From Microbacteriaceae bacterium PS02344 (GTDB lineage Bacteria > Actinomycetota > Actinomycetes > Actinomycetales > Microbacteriaceae): 64,000 nucleotides of DNA. Position 1 is the stretch's first letter. Every line of letters begins with the position of its first letter. The position numbers were made by a program, and so were the translations under genes. Shown here in pieces: positions 6,108 to 50,965 of this stretch. Under the pieces are notes generated by a model. That model was given only the letters and a program-made list of their open reading frames with translations, had not been told where the DNA came from and made no database searches. The DNA lies in assembly GCA_029959905.1 (NCBI GenBank), contig JASCNZ010000007.1:1-64000 (forward strand). Reading direction: 5' to 3'.

Positions 6108-6176
6108 TGCACGGATTTCTCACAGGTGCACGGGGTTGCGGCCGAATCTTCCGTGCATCCGAGGAGGTCCCGTGCA
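6108..6176. repeat. 19-nt-pitch palindromic element, copy A (TGCACGG core)
   Basis: TGCACGG at 6108-6114 and 6127-6133 (start-to-start 19), then CCGTGCA at 6151-6157 and 6170-6176 (again 19). Spacers are 12, 17 and 12 nt, so the whole is a nested dyad 69 nt long. The 6068-6382 gap between convergent rplI and the chaplin-like gene holds this element, a hairpin at 6237, and no credible gene. The same core and the same spacing recur at 44041-44109. Confidence 0.75.
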
Positions 6177-6382: not shown

Positions 6383-8275
6383 CTACGCCGTGCGACGACG
6401 CAGCAGGCCCAGACCCGTGAGAAGCAGCAGCGCCGCGACCAGGCCCAGGGCGATCGGCGAGCCGCCGCCGGTCATCGCCAGCGCCTCTCCGGCCTGAGCC
6501 GAACCCGCCTGTGCCGAGCCCGAGACGTTCGTCGTCACGGCCGCAGCCATGACGGCGCCGGAGCTCGAGCCGGTCGCAGGAGTGGTGCCGGGCGTCGTGC
6601 CGGGGTCGGTGCCGGGGTCGGTTCCGGGGTCCGTTCCCGGGTCGGTGCCGGGGTCGGTTCCCGGGTCGGTGCCGGGGTCGGTTCCGGTGGGGTCGGTCAC
6701 CGTGCTGTCGCCCGTGACCGAGATGGCGTTGCCGCCGATCGTGATCGGAAGGGTGATGGGCGTGGTGATCTGGGTGCCGCCGAGGGTGCTGTCGTCACCG
6801 GTGGTGGTGCTGCCGGTCCCGGTGCCGCCCGTGGCGGGGGTGCCGGTGGTGGTGCCGGTGGTCTCGCTGTCTCCGGTGAGGGAGATGGCGTTGCCGCCGA
6901 CGGTGACCGGGGCGGTGATGGGTGCGGTCACCTGGGTGCCGCCGAGGATGCCGTCGTCACCGGTGGTGGTGCTGCCGGTGCCGGTGCTGCCCGTGGCGGG
7001 GGTGCCGGTGGCGGAGCCGGTGGACTCGCTGTCTCCCAGCAGGGAGATGGCGTTGCCGCCGACGGTGACCGGGGCGGTGATGGGTGCGGTCACCTGGGTG
7101 CCGCCGAGGGTGCTGTCGTTACCGGTGGTGGTGCTGCCGGTGCCGCCGGTGCCGGTGCCGCCCGTGGCGGGGGTGCCGGTGGTCGTGCCGGTCGACTCGC
7201 TGTCTCCCAGCAGGGAGATGGCGTTGCCGCCGACGGTGACCGGGGCGGTGATGGGTGCGGTCACCTGGGTGCCGCCGAGGGTGCCGTCGTCACCTGTGGT
7301 GGTGCTGCCGGTGCCGCCGGTCCCGGTGCCGCCCGTGGCGGGCGTGCCGGTGGTGGTGCGGGTGGTCTCGCTGTCTCCGGTGAGGGAGATGGCGTTGCCG
7401 CCGACGGTGACCGGGGCGGTGATGGGTGCGGTCACCTGGGTGCCGCCGAGGATGCCGTCGTCACCGGTGGTGGTGCTGCCGGTGCCGCCGGTCCCGGTGC
7501 TGCCCGTGGCGGGGGTGCCGGTGGCGGAGCCGGTCGACTCGCTGTCTCCCAGCAGGGAGATGGCGTTGCCGCCGACGGTGACCGGAACCGCGATCGGCGC
7601 CACGACCTGCGTGCCGCCGGCGACGGAGTCGTCACCCGAGGTGGTCGGTGCAGAGGCATCCGTCGTGCCGGACGCAGACGCCGGTGCTGCGGCGCCCCCG
7701 GTCGACTCGGAGTCGCCCAGCAGCGAGATCGCGTTGCCGGTGACGGTGACCGGCACCTCGACATCGATCAGCGCCTGCGAACCCGACAGGAGTCCGTCGA
7801 CGCCGTTCGTCGTGACCGACGGAGCGGTCGCGGGTGCCGGCGCGGGAGCCGGTGCGGGCGCCGGGGCGCCCTGCTCGGCGTTCGAGTCGCCCAGCACGCT
7901 GATCGCGTTGCCGTCGACCGTGACGGGCACTGTCACCTCGACCACGGCCTGCGTGCCCGAGCCGACGCCCGAGTCTCCGCTGGTGGCCGGAGCCGGAGCC
8001 GGAGCCGGCGCGGGTGCCGGAGCAGGTGCGGGTGCCGGAGCCGGAGCCGGTGCCGGAGCGGGGGCCGCCGGAGCCTGCGCCGTCGAGTCGCCGATCAGCG
8101 AGATCGCGTTGTCGACGATCGTGACGGGCACCGAGACCGGTGCCTGAACCTGGCTGCCCGAGAGAAGACCGTCGTCTCCCGAGGTGTCTGCCGCGTTGGC
8201 GGCGGTGGCGCCGAGCAGGGTGACCCCGCCGGCGATGAGCGTGCCCCACAGGGCCCGCTTGAGGTAACTGCGCAT
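6383..8275 (-). CDS. Cell-wall-anchored protein with nine chaplin-like repeats
   Basis: 630 aa from the ATG at 8275 (ribosome site AAGGAGAG). Residues 1-28 are a signal peptide ending ATAANA. Nine repeats follow, each of type GLLSGSQVQAPVSVPV-x4-NAISLIGDS, close to the chaplin domain of Streptomyces (GVLSGN..Q.PV.VPVN..GN.) but without its cysteines. Linkers are Ala-Pro repeats early and Thr/Gly-rich later; a TDPG repeat (about residues 530-560) precedes the C-terminus. The anchor is LAMTG (about 599-603), then a membrane helix and RRRTA, which matches the LAxTG signal of class E sortases. Long chaplins are assembled this way with two domains; nine is exceptional. The downstream gene of a pair with another secreted protein. 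Function (amyloid-like or adhesive surface layer) is inferred. Confidence 0.8.
   Translation of the reverse strand: MRSYLKRALWGTLIAGGVTLLGATAANAADTSGDDGLLSGSQVQAPVSVPVTIVDNAISLIGDSTAQAPAAPAPAPAPAPAPAPAPAPAPAPAPAPATSGDSGVGSGTQAVVEVTVPVTVDGNAISVLGDSNAEQGAPAPAPAPAPAPATAPSVTTNGVDGLLSGSQALIDVEVPVTVTGNAISLLGDSESTGGAAAPASASGTTDASAPTTSGDDSVAGGTQVVAPIAVPVTVGGNAISLLGDSESTGSATGTPATGSTGTGGTGSTTTGDDGILGGTQVTAPITAPVTVGGNAISLTGDSETTRTTTGTPATGGTGTGGTGSTTTGDDGTLGGTQVTAPITAPVTVGGNAISLLGDSESTGTTTGTPATGGTGTGGTGSTTTGNDSTLGGTQVTAPITAPVTVGGNAISLLGDSESTGSATGTPATGSTGTGSTTTGDDGILGGTQVTAPITAPVTVGGNAISLTGDSETTGTTTGTPATGGTGTGSTTTGDDSTLGGTQITTPITLPITIGGNAISVTGDSTVTDPTGTDPGTDPGTDPGTDPGTDPGTDPGTDPGTTPGTTPATGSSSGAVMAAAVTTNVSGSAQAGSAQAGEALAMTGGGSPIALGLVAALLLLTGLGLLRRRTA
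6597..6692 (-). repeat. 12-bp tandem repeat encoding TDPG
   Basis: About eight 12-bp units (GGGTCGGTGCCG-like on the plus strand) encode the TDPG linker of the chaplin-like protein. Such slippage-prone repeats can change copy number. The neighbouring 6880-7600 stretch holds near-identical units of roughly 160-175 bp that encode repeats 4-8. Confidence 0.85.
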
Positions 8276-18633: not shown

Positions 18634-18810
18634 GAGGGTCCTCCTGAGTCGGCGGGTGGTGAGGATTCCACTGTGCCCGGCGGGGCGGGCTGGTGCGACG
18701 GGGTTGACGGTGGGGATGCGCGCGGGTATCCGTACGTGTGCATCCACCCCCGGCATCCCGCGGCACCCCCCGGCATGCCCCGCTCCGCCGGGCCAACTGC
18801 AGGCAGAAAA

Positions 18811-18854
18811 CACGGATGCAGGGAGGGAACACGGTGTCCCTCCCTGCATCCGTG
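18811..18854. terminator. Long perfect hairpin terminator
   Basis: 18-bp perfect stem (CACGGATGCAGGGAGGGA at 18811-18828 with 18837-18854) and an 8-nt loop, 72 nt beyond the stop of the SDR gene. It ends the SDR transcript before the acidic-protein operon. The rest of the gap 18634-18925 holds no gene. Confidence 0.8.
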
Positions 18855-18925
18855 AGAAGTCCCTGCAGATCGCGGCGCGGAACGCGGCGAACCGCGCGGG
18901 GTCACCCGATCAGGGGCTCACCCGA

Positions 18926-23815: not shown

Positions 23816-25159
23816 TCAATCGGCGAGCGGGAGCGTCACGATGAAGCGCGCGCCGCCCCAGCGCGAGGCATCCACCGCCACCGTGCCGCCCATAGCCGTC
23901 GCGATGCCGCGCACGATCGCGAGGCCCAGGCCGCTGCCGCCGGCATCCCGGCTGCGCGCCTCGTCGAGACGCACGAACCGCTCGAACACGCGCTCCCGAT
24001 CGGTGATCGGCACGCCCGCGCCGTCGTCTTCGACGGTCAGCAGCACGACGCCCTCGCCCGGGGTCACGCCGATCGCGACGCGCCCCGCGCTATGCCGGGC
24101 GGCGTTGTCGGCGAGGTTGCGCAGCAGCTGCCCGGTCAACCGCGGATCGCCCGCGACGCGGGCGGCGTGGATGCCGGAGCCGTCGACCTCGATTCCCGCC
24201 GCCCGCAGTCGACGTACCTCGGCGAGCGCCTGGTCGTCGAGGTCGATCGGCTCGTCGCGGGTGGCGACGCCCTCGTCGAGACGGGCGAGCAGCAGCAGCG
24301 ACTCGACGATGCCCTGCAGTCGCAGACCCTCATCCGAGACGACCTCGGCCAGCTCGCCGATGCTCGTCGTCGACGGGTGCGCCTGGGCGAGCTCGGCGTG
24401 CTGCCGGATGACGGCGAGGGGCGAGCGCAGTTCGTGCGAGGCATCCGACACGAATCGGCGCTGGGCGGTCGCCGCAGCGTCGAGACGATCGAGCATGCCG
24501 TTCATCGTCGTCGCGAGCGCGGCGATCTCGTCGCCCGACGGCGGCACCGGCACCCGGTGGTGCAGCCGCTCGGCCGTGATGCCGTCGACCTCCTCGCGGA
24601 TGCGCGTCACCGGACGAAGCGCGCGCCCCGTGACCAGCCACGTCGTGATCGCGACGAGCAGCAGCAGCAGGGGCACCGCGACGGTCAGCAGCACGGCCAC
24701 CGTCGACAGCGTCTCGATGTCGTTCTCGACCGACACGGCGATGACCAGCGTGTGATCGCCCTCGAGGTCGCTCGACACGATCAGCATCGGCTCCCCGTCG
24801 ACGCGACGGGTGACAGGGTCGTCGTCGATCGGCAGCGCGGCCGAGCCCAGGGCATCGCGGGCATCGTCGCTCGCCGCCCGGACCGTGCCGTCGGGGCCGA
24901 TCACCTGCACGATCTCGTCTTCGATGTCGCCGATATCGCGCCCCGCGGGTCCGGGGCCGCCGCGCTGCTCGAAGCGCTCCGACAGTTCGTCGAGGCGCTG
25001 CTCGGCCGCGCGCTCGGTGCCCGCATGGATGCTGGCGCGCAGGATGCCGTAGAACGACACTGCCCCGACGAGCAACGCGATGGCCACGACCAGCGTCGCG
25101 CCGAGGGTCGTGCGACCCCGCACCGAACGCCAGGCGCGGCGGGGCTGATGCTCAGCCAC
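23816..25159 (-). CDS. Sensor histidine kinase (EnvZ/MprB-type)
   Basis: 447 aa, GTG at 25159 overlapping the regulator stop by 8 nt. TM1 about 18-40, extracytoplasmic sensor (about 41-155), TM2 about 157-180, HAMP (RALRPVTRIREEVDGI), H-box SDASHELRSPLAVIRQHAEL, N-box LRNLADNAARHS, and G boxes DDGAGVP and GGSGLGLAIVRGI. Partner of the overlapping OmpR-family regulator. The signal is not deducible; the PepSY-like neighbour points to envelope stress. Confidence 0.93.
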   Translation of the reverse strand: MAEHQPRRAWRSVRGRTTLGATLVVAIALLVGAVSFYGILRASIHAGTERAAEQRLDELSERFEQRGGPGPAGRDIGDIEDEIVQVIGPDGTVRAASDDARDALGSAALPIDDDPVTRRVDGEPMLIVSSDLEGDHTLVIAVSVENDIETLSTVAVLLTVAVPLLLLLVAITTWLVTGRALRPVTRIREEVDGITAERLHHRVPVPPSGDEIAALATTMNGMLDRLDAAATAQRRFVSDASHELRSPLAVIRQHAELAQAHPSTTSIGELAEVVSDEGLRLQGIVESLLLLARLDEGVATRDEPIDLDDQALAEVRRLRAAGIEVDGSGIHAARVAGDPRLTGQLLRNLADNAARHSAGRVAIGVTPGEGVVLLTVEDDGAGVPITDRERVFERFVRLDEARSRDAGGSGLGLAIVRGIATAMGGTVAVDASRWGGARFIVTLPLAD

Positions 25160-25829
25160 CGTCGGCCGCCAATCGGTAGCCCGCGCCGCGGATCGTCTCG
25201 ATCGCCTCGCGGTCGAACGGCTTGTCGACCTTGCGGCGCAGGTGCCCCACGTACACCTCGACGATGTTGGGGTCGCCGTCGAAGTCGTCGTCCCACACGC
25301 CCTCGATGAGAGCGCGCTTCGACACGACCTGGCCGCGGTGGCGCATCAAGTGCTCGAGCACGGCGAACTCGCGGGCCGTGAGGGTGATCGGCGCGTCTCC
25401 GCGCCACACGCGATGCGCCGCGGGGTCGAGACGCAGGTCGCCGGCCTCGAGCACGGTCGGGCGCGCCACGGCGCCGCGCCGCACGAGGGCGCGCAGTCGT
25501 GCCACGAGGATCGCGAACGAGAAGGGCTTCGTGACGTAGTCGTCGGCGCCGCTCTCGAGTGCCTCGACCTGATCCCACTCGCCGTCCTTCGCGGTGAGCA
25601 TGAGCACCGGCGTCCAGTTCTCCTCGGCGCGCAGGGCCTCGCACACCTTCCACCCGCTCATGCCCGGCATCATCAGGTCGAGCACGATCGCGTCGTACCG
25701 GGTCTCGCGGGCGCGCCACAGTCCGTCGACGCCGTTGTGCGCCACGTCGACCGCGAAGCCCTCGGCCTCGAGCCCGCGGCGTACGGCGTCGGCGAGCCGC
25801 ACCTCGTCGTCGACCACCAGGATGCGCAT
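25152..25829 (-). CDS. OmpR/PhoB-family response regulator
   Basis: 225 aa from the ATG at 25829. Receiver: acidic DDE (about 8-10), phospho-acceptor Asp in IVLDLMMPGMSG (about 51), LTAKDG Thr, and YVTKPF Lys. The winged-helix effector domain ends IETIRGAGYRLA. The promoter region carries five phased CTGAAGCGCGG repeats, so it probably regulates itself. Operon with the kinase; the same repeat precedes the PepSY-like gene. Confidence 0.94.
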   Translation of the reverse strand: MRILVVDDEVRLADAVRRGLEAEGFAVDVAHNGVDGLWRARETRYDAIVLDLMMPGMSGWKVCEALRAEENWTPVLMLTAKDGEWDQVEALESGADDYVTKPFSFAILVARLRALVRRGAVARPTVLEAGDLRLDPAAHRVWRGDAPITLTAREFAVLEHLMRHRGQVVSKRALIEGVWDDDFDGDPNIVEVYVGHLRRKVDKPFDREAIETIRGAGYRLAADGG

Positions 25830-25835
25830 GCTCCC

Positions 25836-25907
25836 AGTGTGGCGCGTCAGGCCTGAAGCGCGGCTGAAGCGCGGCTGAAGCGCGGCTGAAGCGCGGCTGA
25901 GGCGCGG
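25836..25907 (-). promoter_or_regulatory. Five 11-bp operator repeats and leaderless -10 of the response regulator
   Basis: CTGAAGCGCGG repeated at 25853, 25864, 25875 and 25886, with a fifth copy (one mismatch) at 25897: exact 11-bp pitch, about one helical turn, as bound by OmpR-family dimers. On the minus strand the last CTTCAG is followed by 11 nt, CACACT (25841-25836), 6 nt and the ATG at 25829. Confidence 0.7.
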
Positions 25908-25960
25908 CGGAGGCGGCGGGTGCGGCGGGTGGTGCGGCGGACCCCGGCGCGACATCCCGC

Positions 25961-26096
25961 GAGACACCATCTCCGTCGTGAGACGTCGCGTCACGCGTGG
26001 TGTCTCACGCTCGTTCTGGTGTCTCGCCGTTCCGCGTGCGGCCGAGGCGGGGTCCCGGCTACGCGCTCGACGAGACACGACAGGAGATGGTGTCTC
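25961..26096. repeat. 19-nt-pitch palindromic element (GAGACAC core) with a second hairpin
   Basis: GAGACAC at 25961 and the variant GAGACGT at 25980 (pitch 19), then GTGTCTC at 26000 and 26019 (pitch 19). A further GAGACAC (26072-26078) pairs with GTGTCTC (26090-26096). GAGACACCATCTCC (25961-25974) also has an exact inverted copy at 26083-26096. It occupies the gap between the stop of the serine hydrolase gene and the regulator promoter; no gene there. Confidence 0.65.
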
Positions 26097-43969: not shown

Positions 43970-44040
43970 CGCCGGATTCTCCGGTCATCCCGGTCGCGCG
44001 CACCGGTCGTCGGCCCCATTTCGCGCGTACCCGCGCCGGC

Positions 44041-44109
44041 TGCACGGAGATTGCACGTCTGCACGGAGCATCCGTCGATTTCTCCGTGCAGGTGTGAAAA
44101 TGTCGTGCA
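44041..44109. repeat. 19-nt-pitch palindromic element, copy B (TGCACGG core)
   Basis: TGCACGG at 44041 and 44060, CCGTGCA at 44084, and the variant TCGTGCA at 44103. Pitch 19 on each arm and spacers of 12, 17 and 12 nt, identical to copy A at 6108-6176, while the spacer sequences differ. It lies in the gap 43970-44160 between the convergent MFS and pnuC genes. Confidence 0.75.
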
Positions 44110-44160
44110 GGTGGGGGTGGATGCAGGGGGGATGCACGGCCGGGGCCGGATCCGGCGCGG

Positions 44161-49554: not shown

Positions 49555-49800
49555 ATGGTCGTCAATCCGCTCATCCCGAGCATCTACGACGTCGTGTTCG
49601 GATGCATCTGGGTCGCCGTCGTGGCGTTGACCGTGGTGGCGTTCGTCTCCGCCCTGCGCGAGCGCCGTGTCACCGGCATCCACTTCGTCCTGTGGGCTCT
49701 GCTGATCTGGTTCGTGCCCGTCCTCGGTCCCATCGCCTGGTTCCTGCGCCGCCCCCGCGGTGCCGACGTGCCTGCTGCGTCGCGCGCGGCATCCGACTGA
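49555..49800 (+). CDS. PLDc_N-type small membrane protein
   Basis: 81 aa from the ATG at 49555 (GAGGAG). Two membrane helices (about 11-32 and 43-62) with the LIWFVPVLGPIAWFLRRPR motif that is typical of the phospholipase D N-terminal-like (PLDNc) family. No catalytic domain; function unknown. Followed by a large repeat array. Confidence 0.82.
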   Translation: MVVNPLIPSIYDVVFGCIWVAVVALTVVAFVSALRERRVTGIHFVLWALLIWFVPVLGPIAWFLRRPRGADVPAASRAASD

Positions 49801-49849
49801 GCACCCGCCGCGCCCTCTTCGCCCGCCGCCCCTTCGTCGCGCGAACCCA

Positions 49850-50126
49850 GGAGATCTCGCGAAACGAAGGAGTGGATGCCCGAGTCACTCCTTCGCAGCG
49901 AAAGATCTCCTTCGCAGCGAAAGATCTCCTTCGCAGCGAAAGATCTCCTTCGCAGTGCGGGCAGCCGGCGAAGCGCCCTCCGCAACGGAGGAGATCTCGC
50001 GAAACGAAGGAGTGGATGCCCGAATCACTCCTTCGCAGCAGGAGATCTCCTTCGCAACGGAGGATCTCCTTCGCAGCGGTAGATCTCCTGCGCAGCGGGA
50101 GATCTCCTTCGCAACGGGACATCTCC
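49850..50126. repeat. Two-block array of 19-nt-pitch heptamers (GGAGATC/GATCTCC)
   Basis: Block 1: GGAGATC 49850, GGAGTGG 49869; then TCACTCC 49885, GATCTCC 49904, 49923, 49942. Block 2: GGAGATC 49990, GGAGTGG 50009; then TCACTCC 50025, GATCTCC 50044, 50063, 50082, 50101, and CATCTCC 50120. Every step within an arm is exactly 19 nt; spacers are variants of TTCGCAGCGAAA. A 48-nt head is duplicated between blocks with a 140-nt offset. It fills the gap 49801-50155 between convergent genes; no gene there. Confidence 0.85.
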
Positions 50127-50155
50127 TTCAGAGCGCGACAGTCAAGGAGCCGAGC

Positions 50156-50965
50156 TCAGCCCTCGGCGAGGAACGCCACCGCCGCGTCCTTGAAGGCGCG
50201 CGAGCCGGGCGCGTTGAAGTGATTGCGATCGGGGATCTCGAAGAACCGCCCGTCGGGGGCGGCGGATGCCAGGGCGCGCGAGCCCTCGATGATGGCGTCT
50301 TTCGACCCGGTCGCGAAGAGGATGGGGCGCGCCGGTGCATCCGCCGGATCGGGGTCGATCGCGCCGGACGACCGCATGCCCTCGGCCAGCGCGACGAGTG
50401 CGCTGAGATCGTTGCCCGGTACGCGCTCGACGAGCGAGATGTAGTTCTGCGTCGTGGCATCGGCCACCGGGGTGCCGTCGGCGATGTACGCCCGCACCTG
50501 GTCGAGGTCGAGGCGGGCGAGGGGGATGCCGTCCGGCACACCGCCGAGCACGGCGCGGCCGATGCGGTGCGGCAGCTCCTTCACCACCTCCCAGCCGACC
50601 CGGGCGCCGAGCGAGTAACCGACGTACACGGCATCGTCGACGAGGTGGGCGTCGAGCACCGCCTCGACATCGGTGACCAGCGTGCGGATGCTGTAGTCCT
50701 CGGGCAGGTGCGGCTTCTCGCTGTGCCCGTGCCCGCGCTGGTCGAGGGCGAGCACGCGGTATCCGGCCCTCGTCAGCTCGCGCACCCACCCCGTGAGCAC
50801 CCAGTTGTCGCGGGCGCTGGAGGCGAAGCCGTGCACGGCCACGACGACCGGAGCATCCGGTTCGCCCCACGTGTAGGTCGCCAGGCGCGTGCCGTCTGCG
50901 GCGTGCACGTGCTGCGGTTCGGGCATACGGGTGATGTCGGAGAGGGGGACGGCCACGGCATCCAT
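50156..50965 (-). CDS. Alpha/beta hydrolase
   Basis: 269 aa from the ATG at 50965 (GGGAGG). Oxyanion HGFASSARDNW, nucleophile elbow VGYSLGAR (Ser about 121), acid near LFATGSKDAIIEG, and catalytic His in PDRNHFNAPGSRAF. A small soluble esterase/lipase-like enzyme, substrate unknown. Just upstream (on its strand) is katA, but in a separate transcript. Confidence 0.9.
   Translation of the reverse strand: MDAVAVPLSDITRMPEPQHVHAADGTRLATYTWGEPDAPVVVAVHGFASSARDNWVLTGWVRELTRAGYRVLALDQRGHGHSEKPHLPEDYSIRTLVTDVEAVLDAHLVDDAVYVGYSLGARVGWEVVKELPHRIGRAVLGGVPDGIPLARLDLDQVRAYIADGTPVADATTQNYISLVERVPGNDLSALVALAEGMRSSGAIDPDPADAPARPILFATGSKDAIIEGSRALASAAPDGRFFEIPDRNHFNAPGSRAFKDAAVAFLAEG

Follow-up and report, generated by a model that had tools for sequence, protein, structure and literature searches.

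What is a locus that sets fourteen short words of GGAG type, in two orientations, at strict 19-nt steps in the gap between two convergent genes? The array lies at 49850-50126 of the window, by which we mean the whole 64,000-nt stretch of DNA analyzed, and sits internally in a 96-kb contig of a 3.19-Mb genome (G000; below, genomes, contigs and loci carry the labels G, C and L). A sequence-only reading had described it as a two-block array that can expand, that may be hypervariable and that shares its build with TGCACGG dyads of the same window.

The array and its sister elements

Read directly from the sequence, all fourteen words stand at exact 19-nt steps within each of two blocks (2+4 and 2+6), as that reading had claimed. 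The GGAG words of block 1 start at 49850 and 49869 and are followed by CTCC words at 49888 and 49907; in block 2 the corresponding starts are 49990 and 50009, then 50028 and 50047. The remaining CTCC starts are given in Table 1, and the step over each block's center, from GGAG start to CTCC start, is likewise 19 nt. The two blocks form a direct repeat. Calling the unit almost invariant was apt for block 1, in which the three complete right-arm units are identical (CTCCTTCGCAGCGAAAGAT), but not for block 2, in which the five complete units differ; TRF gives tandem-unit matches of 100% and 85%. At pitch 19 the window yields 17 layout matches, while none of 20 Markov controls yields more than one, and GATCTCC-N12-GATCTCC occurs eight times genome-wide, five of them in the array.

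Our own simple gene finder places the array between convergent genes at 49555-49800 (plus strand) and 50156-50965 (minus strand), which bears out the earlier description of the gap. From their translations, the neighboring ORFs are read as a putative methionine sulfoxide reductase, a small membrane protein and an alpha/beta hydrolase. No T run flanks blocks 1 and 2 on either side, and Rfam models give no match to the window at gathering scores. Because comparable arrays occur at other sites of the same genome (C128, C139 and C79), this one is neither peculiar to one spot nor an isolated assembly oddity; its exact unit number can be checked only with reads.

Table 1. Positions of the array's parts and of elements with the same layout (window coordinates)
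Feature	Position	Strand	Detail
Block 1 core dyad (2+2 words plus outer flanks of the outer units)	49837..49923	.	61-bp frame 49850-49910; outer-flank consensus
Block 1 right-arm expansion	49911..49955	.	Extra CTCC at 49926, 49945; 19-bp units identical
Block 2 core dyad	49977..50063	.	61-bp frame 49990-50050; 89% identity with block 1 over 112 bp, distance 140
Block 2 right-arm expansion	50051..50129	.	Extra CTCC words at 50066, 50085, 50104, 50123; units diverged
Same layout, word TGCACGG	6108..6176	.	2+2, pitch 19, gap 17
Same layout, word CTGCACG	44040..44110	.	Layout scan
Same layout, word (C/A)TGCAGG	18797..18868	.	Layout scan
Same layout, word G(C/T)GAGAC	25959..26027	.	Layout scan

The array indeed shares the architecture of the TGCACGG dyads, with the same 61-bp frame and the same pitch, and its right arm is amplified. 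The view of one locus plus a sister element proved too narrow; the array belongs instead to a class of elements dispersed across the genus. The exact frame GGAG-N15-GGAG-N15-CTCC-N15-CTCC (61 bp) has seven sites in this genome and is present in 48 of the 149 genus genomes, whereas the reversed control pattern gives none here and one genome in 149. The word TGCAGG uses the same layout in 9 of the 149 (control, 0). With a narrower pattern, the 58 stretches recovered from named genomes comprise 52 titled Microbacterium and six whose titles say only that they are Actinomycetota MAGs, all of one SZAS series. Across the family, the GGAG frame occurs in 9 of 199 genomes and in 6 of 85 genera, own genus included. 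A scan of other genera (366,864 bases drawn from 20 genomes, with two short stretches among them) gives ten matches at pitch 19, in three loci, against 0-4 at other pitches. Searches for phage or plasmid copies of the element gave no match. Among the titles listed, and with subscription papers outside the scope, we found no paper describing such repeats in Microbacterium; PMC3733652 mentions neither Microbacterium nor Actinobacteria, and PMC12306157 does not mention Microbacterium.

A fixed pitch and a four-word element

The layout can be sought without reference to any word, as 7-mers in the order w, w, rc(w), rc(w) with at least 19 of 21 positions matching. In 394,712 bases of this genome, chosen for contigs with a GGAG-type match and counted with overlapping matches, several per element, this word-free scan gives 66 matches at pitch 19, whereas the remaining pitches between 12 and 30 give 0-15 each (15 at pitch 18, 9 at 12, 8 at 24 and at most 5 elsewhere). 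GGAG types, TGCAGG, TGCACGG and GAGACAC all use the pitch-19 layout. A CTCGCAG family that uses pitch 18 accounts for three of the six pitch-18 rows, and the pitch-24 matches are tandem-repeat sequence. Among relatives, 461,549 bases selected for holding a GGAG element give 238 matches at pitch 19 and 0-13 at each other pitch between 14 and 26; G126 and G135, scanned over 600 kb each, give 39 and 36, with at most 10 at any other pitch between 15 and 23. Not every element keeps to pitch 19: the GGAG-like elements of L207 and L209, at the second orthologous gap described below, fit pitch 18 best.

The pitch-18 CTCGCAG sister family was located at L058:19800, L059:9621 and L059:17190, and by eye also in the gaps L052:14859 and L058:15771. 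It sits in convergent gaps wherever both neighbors are called.

In its ground state the element has two words on each side. For five words we collected exact inner inverted 6-mer pairs blind to the outer words, and obtained 34 from 395 kb of this genome plus 600 kb from each of G126 and G135. Both outer words, with at most two mismatches, lie at exactly 19 in 28 of the 34: 13 of 14 here (four being tandem copies at one locus) and 10 of 12 and 5 of 8 in the others. Outer words at pitches 16, 17 and 18 number 2, 0 and 0, and at 20, 21 and 22 they number 0, 0 and 2; these four off-pitch cases stem from one low-complexity GGAGGAG element each in G126 and G135, counted at both 16 and 22. Judged by sequence, the six exceptions look like chance matches. 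A looser count in this genome finds 25 inner pairs, of which 20 have at least two words per side and five are 1+1 pairs that look like chance. Arms of 2+2 make up 13 of the 20 (the 20 include two TGCAGG-type copies, and nine come from loci fetched for holding a doublet); 2+3 and 2+4 occur twice each, and 2+6, 3+2 and 12+2 once each. A word-like match in the third position has a chance probability of 0.10. At other loci, many of them fetched by a four-word pattern and two being the window locus again, the looser count gives at least 2+2 in 90 of 112. Most of the other 22 look like chance, and L197 is a real element whose outer words are off pitch or degenerate.

Half elements standing alone were not found among those inspected. 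A whole-genome search for the GGAG-word half gives 46 matches, against 13 for the control, and by eye an inverted partner is present in each of the 11 loci fetched, a weak one in L231; the follow-up was confined to matches other than five one-mismatch ones without the family core (one each on C11, C102 and C125, two on C62). Over about 856 kb, 25 of 143 doublets have no strict partner, and by eye these are array extensions or have a degenerate partner.

The unit itself is bipartite. Derived from 77 GGAG-frame elements, 70 exact and seven with one mismatch, the consensus shows C at -13 (0.82), C at -11 (0.77), CG at -9/-8 (0.58 each) and GRAGGAG at -3 to +3, followed by AW. The unit of the GGAG family thus holds the stretches CNCNCG and GRAGGAG about one helical turn apart, and as the first of these recurs outside the outer words, both stretches are present in each of the four units. 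CTC at +6 to +8 is also conserved but is part of the search pattern for most rows, so it is not independent. Words vary between families and between the elements of one family, yet they repeat four times within an element: at three variable word positions, agreement is 0.76-0.82 within an element and 0.61-0.63 between elements of the same genome (85 elements after removal of near-identical same-genome copies, from genomes with at least two elements). The agreement holds for all six word pairs alike, direct and inverted. Base pairing alone would favor the inverted pairs.

Dispersal and turnover between convergent genes

The elements concentrate between convergent genes. Counting gaps of at least 60 bp and pitch-19 scores of at least 18 in the sampled part of this genome, elements occupy 12 of 40 convergent gaps, 2 of 59 divergent gaps and 5 of 96 tandem gaps, or 7 of 155 non-convergent ones (p = 2e-5). 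The 26 individual spots, several of which share a gap, divide into 17 convergent, 6 tandem, 2 divergent and 1 at a stretch end.

Orthologous gaps differ in what they hold. We compared 30 loci for the gap of the window array, using a scan score of at least 17. Dyads were found by scan in L124 (the locus itself), L125, L128, L137, L144, L146, L147 and L151, and by eye in L127 and L141, with words that range from GAAGGAG variants to unrelated ones. In other species the gap holds a single element, different words or none. Scan matches in L129 and L140 were taken for plain palindromes, and the remaining loci have plain hairpins, other repeats or almost nothing; in L152 and L153 the following gene does not converge on the gap. 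A second orthologous gap, also compared over 30 loci, holds a dyad in 13 by scan and in four by eye (L197, L210, L219 and L222), with one partial dyad (L200); of the rest, four hold another palindrome, seven nothing visible, and one is incomplete in sequence (L208). In 28 of the 30 loci (all except L217 and L208, judged partly by eye), the left gene is followed first by an ordinary hairpin with TTT behind it and then by the place of the element; in L212 and L219 the scan also scored this terminator. The separate terminator persists while elements appear, disappear and give way to others, so it is not the elements that end transcription at this gap.

Palindromic intergenic repeats without 19-pitch words occupy similar gaps, for example GGTCGCAGTTTCTGCCGTC, ACGCCAGATGTCGGAC, TTCGACAAGCTCAGGG and GATCAAAATCGCAC. 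Such palindromes were seen at L196, L202, L204 and L218, at L125, L126, L127, L136, L129 and L140, and at L054:14523 and L062:2897.

That the array can expand, as the sequence-only reading proposed, agrees with a comparison of loci, in which expansions of one arm recur at other loci and in other species. Larger rearrangements were also observed. On C128 (L050:17342-18383), two near-identical dyads, the first with a 12-unit left arm (by scan) and the second with a 4-unit right arm, enclose about 620 bp, read as a small lipoprotein-like gene. Whole elements stand in tandem at L058:1726-2233 on C84 (four copies, each about 145 bp, with the word TGCAGG) and at L095:250-960 (three of about 310 bp, word of GAGACAC type).

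The words change more slowly than the sequence between them. Between two genomes of different species, which are 94.3% identical across 161 kb within their first 200 kb, a comparison of 600 kb from each finds changes at 16 of 409 word positions and at 50 of 610 spacer and loop positions (p = 0.006, the test having used 410). The 15 elements in this comparison were hand-merged from 35 rows after removal of seven pitch-18 rows, one simple repeat, three unaligned rows and nine second views of the same element. A simulation of detection bias gives an expected 0.067-0.074 for unconstrained words against the observed 0.039. With both views pooled, the differences are 32/745 in words, 49/638 in spacers, 33/447 in loops and 192/1516 in 30-bp flanks. 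In this small sample, the counts support moderate constraint on the words.

One lineage seems to have dispersed. Of 15 near-identical pairs checked for common flanks, seven share flanks or belong to one locus (one via the array itself) and eight do not. Seven of those eight belong to or resemble a lineage with the loop CGGATGCSGCATCCG, which occupies non-orthologous places in this genome and in other species; the eighth is L077/L110, with a similarity of 0.67. GGATGC/GCATCC is over-represented in 395 kb of this genome (1107 occurrences against 758 expected) and recurs in element loops, so CGGATGCSGCATCCG-type loops may also have arisen by convergence. No clean single-element empty site, with or without a target-site duplication, as evidence of movement was found at the four elements examined in G126 and G135, and the second-gap loci are too diverged for one to be seen.

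A candidate four-site platform

Beside the observed layout, pitch, distribution, two-plus-two ground state, expansions and turnover at orthologous gaps, we set an explanation that we hold with modest confidence: the locus would be an amplified member of a class of REP-like short interspersed palindromic repeats, each a four-site platform for a bipartite DNA-binding protein. The repeats are probably binding sites for such a protein. Four features, namely a constant pitch, a unit of two parts, a requirement for four words and moderate constraint, together point to an oligomeric protein that binds double-stranded DNA. The working unit may be a tetrad in which two tandem 19-bp units and their inverted copies flank a center of about 15-22 bp. 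Each unit would be occupied by one protomer of a sequence-specific protein that contacts DNA through two of its parts, and a complex would require four or more protomers, arranged as two facing two. Elements of the class lie at the 3' ends of genes, mostly convergent ones, and are not the terminators there. At the window locus, a duplication of the whole element (140-bp period) may have come first; 19-bp units would then have been added to both right arms, most simply via slippage or unequal exchange between tandem units. Candidate roles of the protein are spreading the element or organizing DNA at convergent gene ends. Because the words differ between families in one genome, no single protein of fixed specificity can serve them all, and paralogs or loose recognition must be assumed. 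A speculative extension, to which we give rather little weight, takes the geometry (19 bp, two facing two) as fixed and the word as free, to be read by fast-diverging paralogous binders or a nucleic-acid guide at convergent gene ends.

The position between convergent genes also suits bidirectional transcription terminators or 3'-UTR hairpins, in which the RNA arms would pair and end or protect both convergent transcripts. Intrinsic bidirectional terminators share the inverted repeat between convergent genes, some of our elements are near-perfect palindromes, and the two core dyads of the array have predicted folding energies of -45 and -51 kcal/mol. Positions 15, 24 and 26 pair between the arms above the expectation from elements of the same genome (0.64, 0.54 and 0.49 against 0.42, 0.41 and 0.39), and one inner word pair carries a compensatory change (A 334786 / B 312912); these hint that pairing matters or that templates were switched. 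The spacers are, however, largely unpaired: positions 9, 12 and 14 pair at 0.35-0.45 against 0.31-0.38 expected, and in the element at 6108 only 3 of 12 spacer positions do. Pairing demands neither direct repeats of the word within each arm nor a fixed 19, and at the second gap the separate hairpin with TTT is kept whether the element behind it is present, absent or of another word family. We regard this reading as unlikely. Neutral by-products of replication slippage and template switching, with no binding partner, would fit the recurrent one-arm expansions and whole-element tandem copies, but mutation alone leaves unexplained the 19 that is fixed across words, the two-plus-two ground state and the slower change of the words, and we think it quite improbable.

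Mobile repeats offer the closest comparisons. Like the REP, BIME and REPIN sequences of Enterobacteria and Pseudomonas, as characterized in PMC3116915, the elements are short, dispersed, palindromic, extragenic and repeated in the genome, lie near gene 3' ends, take a paired form as their unit, and form clusters with tandem amplification. Mobilization by a RAYT (Y1 HUH) transposase would agree with these properties and with the GGAG-like tetranucleotides. The tetranucleotide is, however, present here as four words at pitch 19, other families in the genome lack GGAG, and the spacing is constant while the words vary, unlike the tetranucleotide plus hairpin of a REP. RAYT (PF01797) was sought and is absent from this genome, with 5 of 14 control genomes positive, and it occurs in 1 of 149 genus genomes, whereas the exact frame occurs in 48. 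We therefore do not file the elements under REP, and mobilization by RAYT is very improbable in this genome, unless a HUH enzyme from outside PF01797 is at work.

For Tn402/Tn5090 the repeat figure is 19 bp, and the ends of IS21 are comparable. According to PMC8649781, the ends of Tn7, Tn5090, Tn5053 and Tn552 carry arrays of inverted repeats of about 20 bp with transposase sites, in tandem and inverted between the two sides, as in our elements. MITE-like remnants of such a transposon (Tn7/Tn5053/IS21-like) would also fit the apparent dispersal of the CGGATGCSGCATCCG lineage. Against this, no transposon body was found, and no half element parted from its partner by a body was seen in the 856 kb or, for the GGAG word, among the loci fetched from the genome-wide search. 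This genome also gives no match to the rve transposase core (PF00665), for which 6 of 14 control genomes are positive. Remnants of this kind are an improbable source. Pneumococcal BOX and RUP and enterobacterial ERIC are, like our elements, small interspersed intergenic repeats, of about 100 bp; we know of no sequence or 19-bp tetrad layout that they have in common with them. Integron attC sites were set aside, as their box spacing and consensus presumably differ from those of the elements. Intrastrand triplex repeats (described in PMC4666352) were dropped because the words are not homopurine. GGA sites of CsrA type were considered as a further candidate.

Operators of the flanking genes are also unlikely: nine of ten neighbors of non-convergent gaps match unrelated ordinary Pfam families (adenylosuccinate synthetase, EamA, M20 peptidase, short-chain dehydrogenase, a beta-lactamase fold, CHAT and three regulators, of LuxR/GerE, OmpR-type response regulator and PadR families), and one has no match.

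Elements of this class take up a sizable share of convergent gaps in the sampled part of this genome, neither a mobilizer nor a binding protein was found for them, and the GGAG frame alone is present in about a third of the sampled genus. The constant pitch and variable words give a clean handle on a candidate DNA-binding system.

Two other repeats in the window are recorded here. Five tandem 11-bp repeats (CTGAAGCGCGG) lie at 25853-25908, directly upstream of the gene for an OmpR/PhoB-type response regulator (25152-25829, minus strand; Pfam). An 11-bp pitch fits regulators of this type, and the repeats are possibly a self-regulated operator array. At 6720-7585, a 171-bp tandem repeat in five copies lies within a predicted gene (6383-8275, minus strand).
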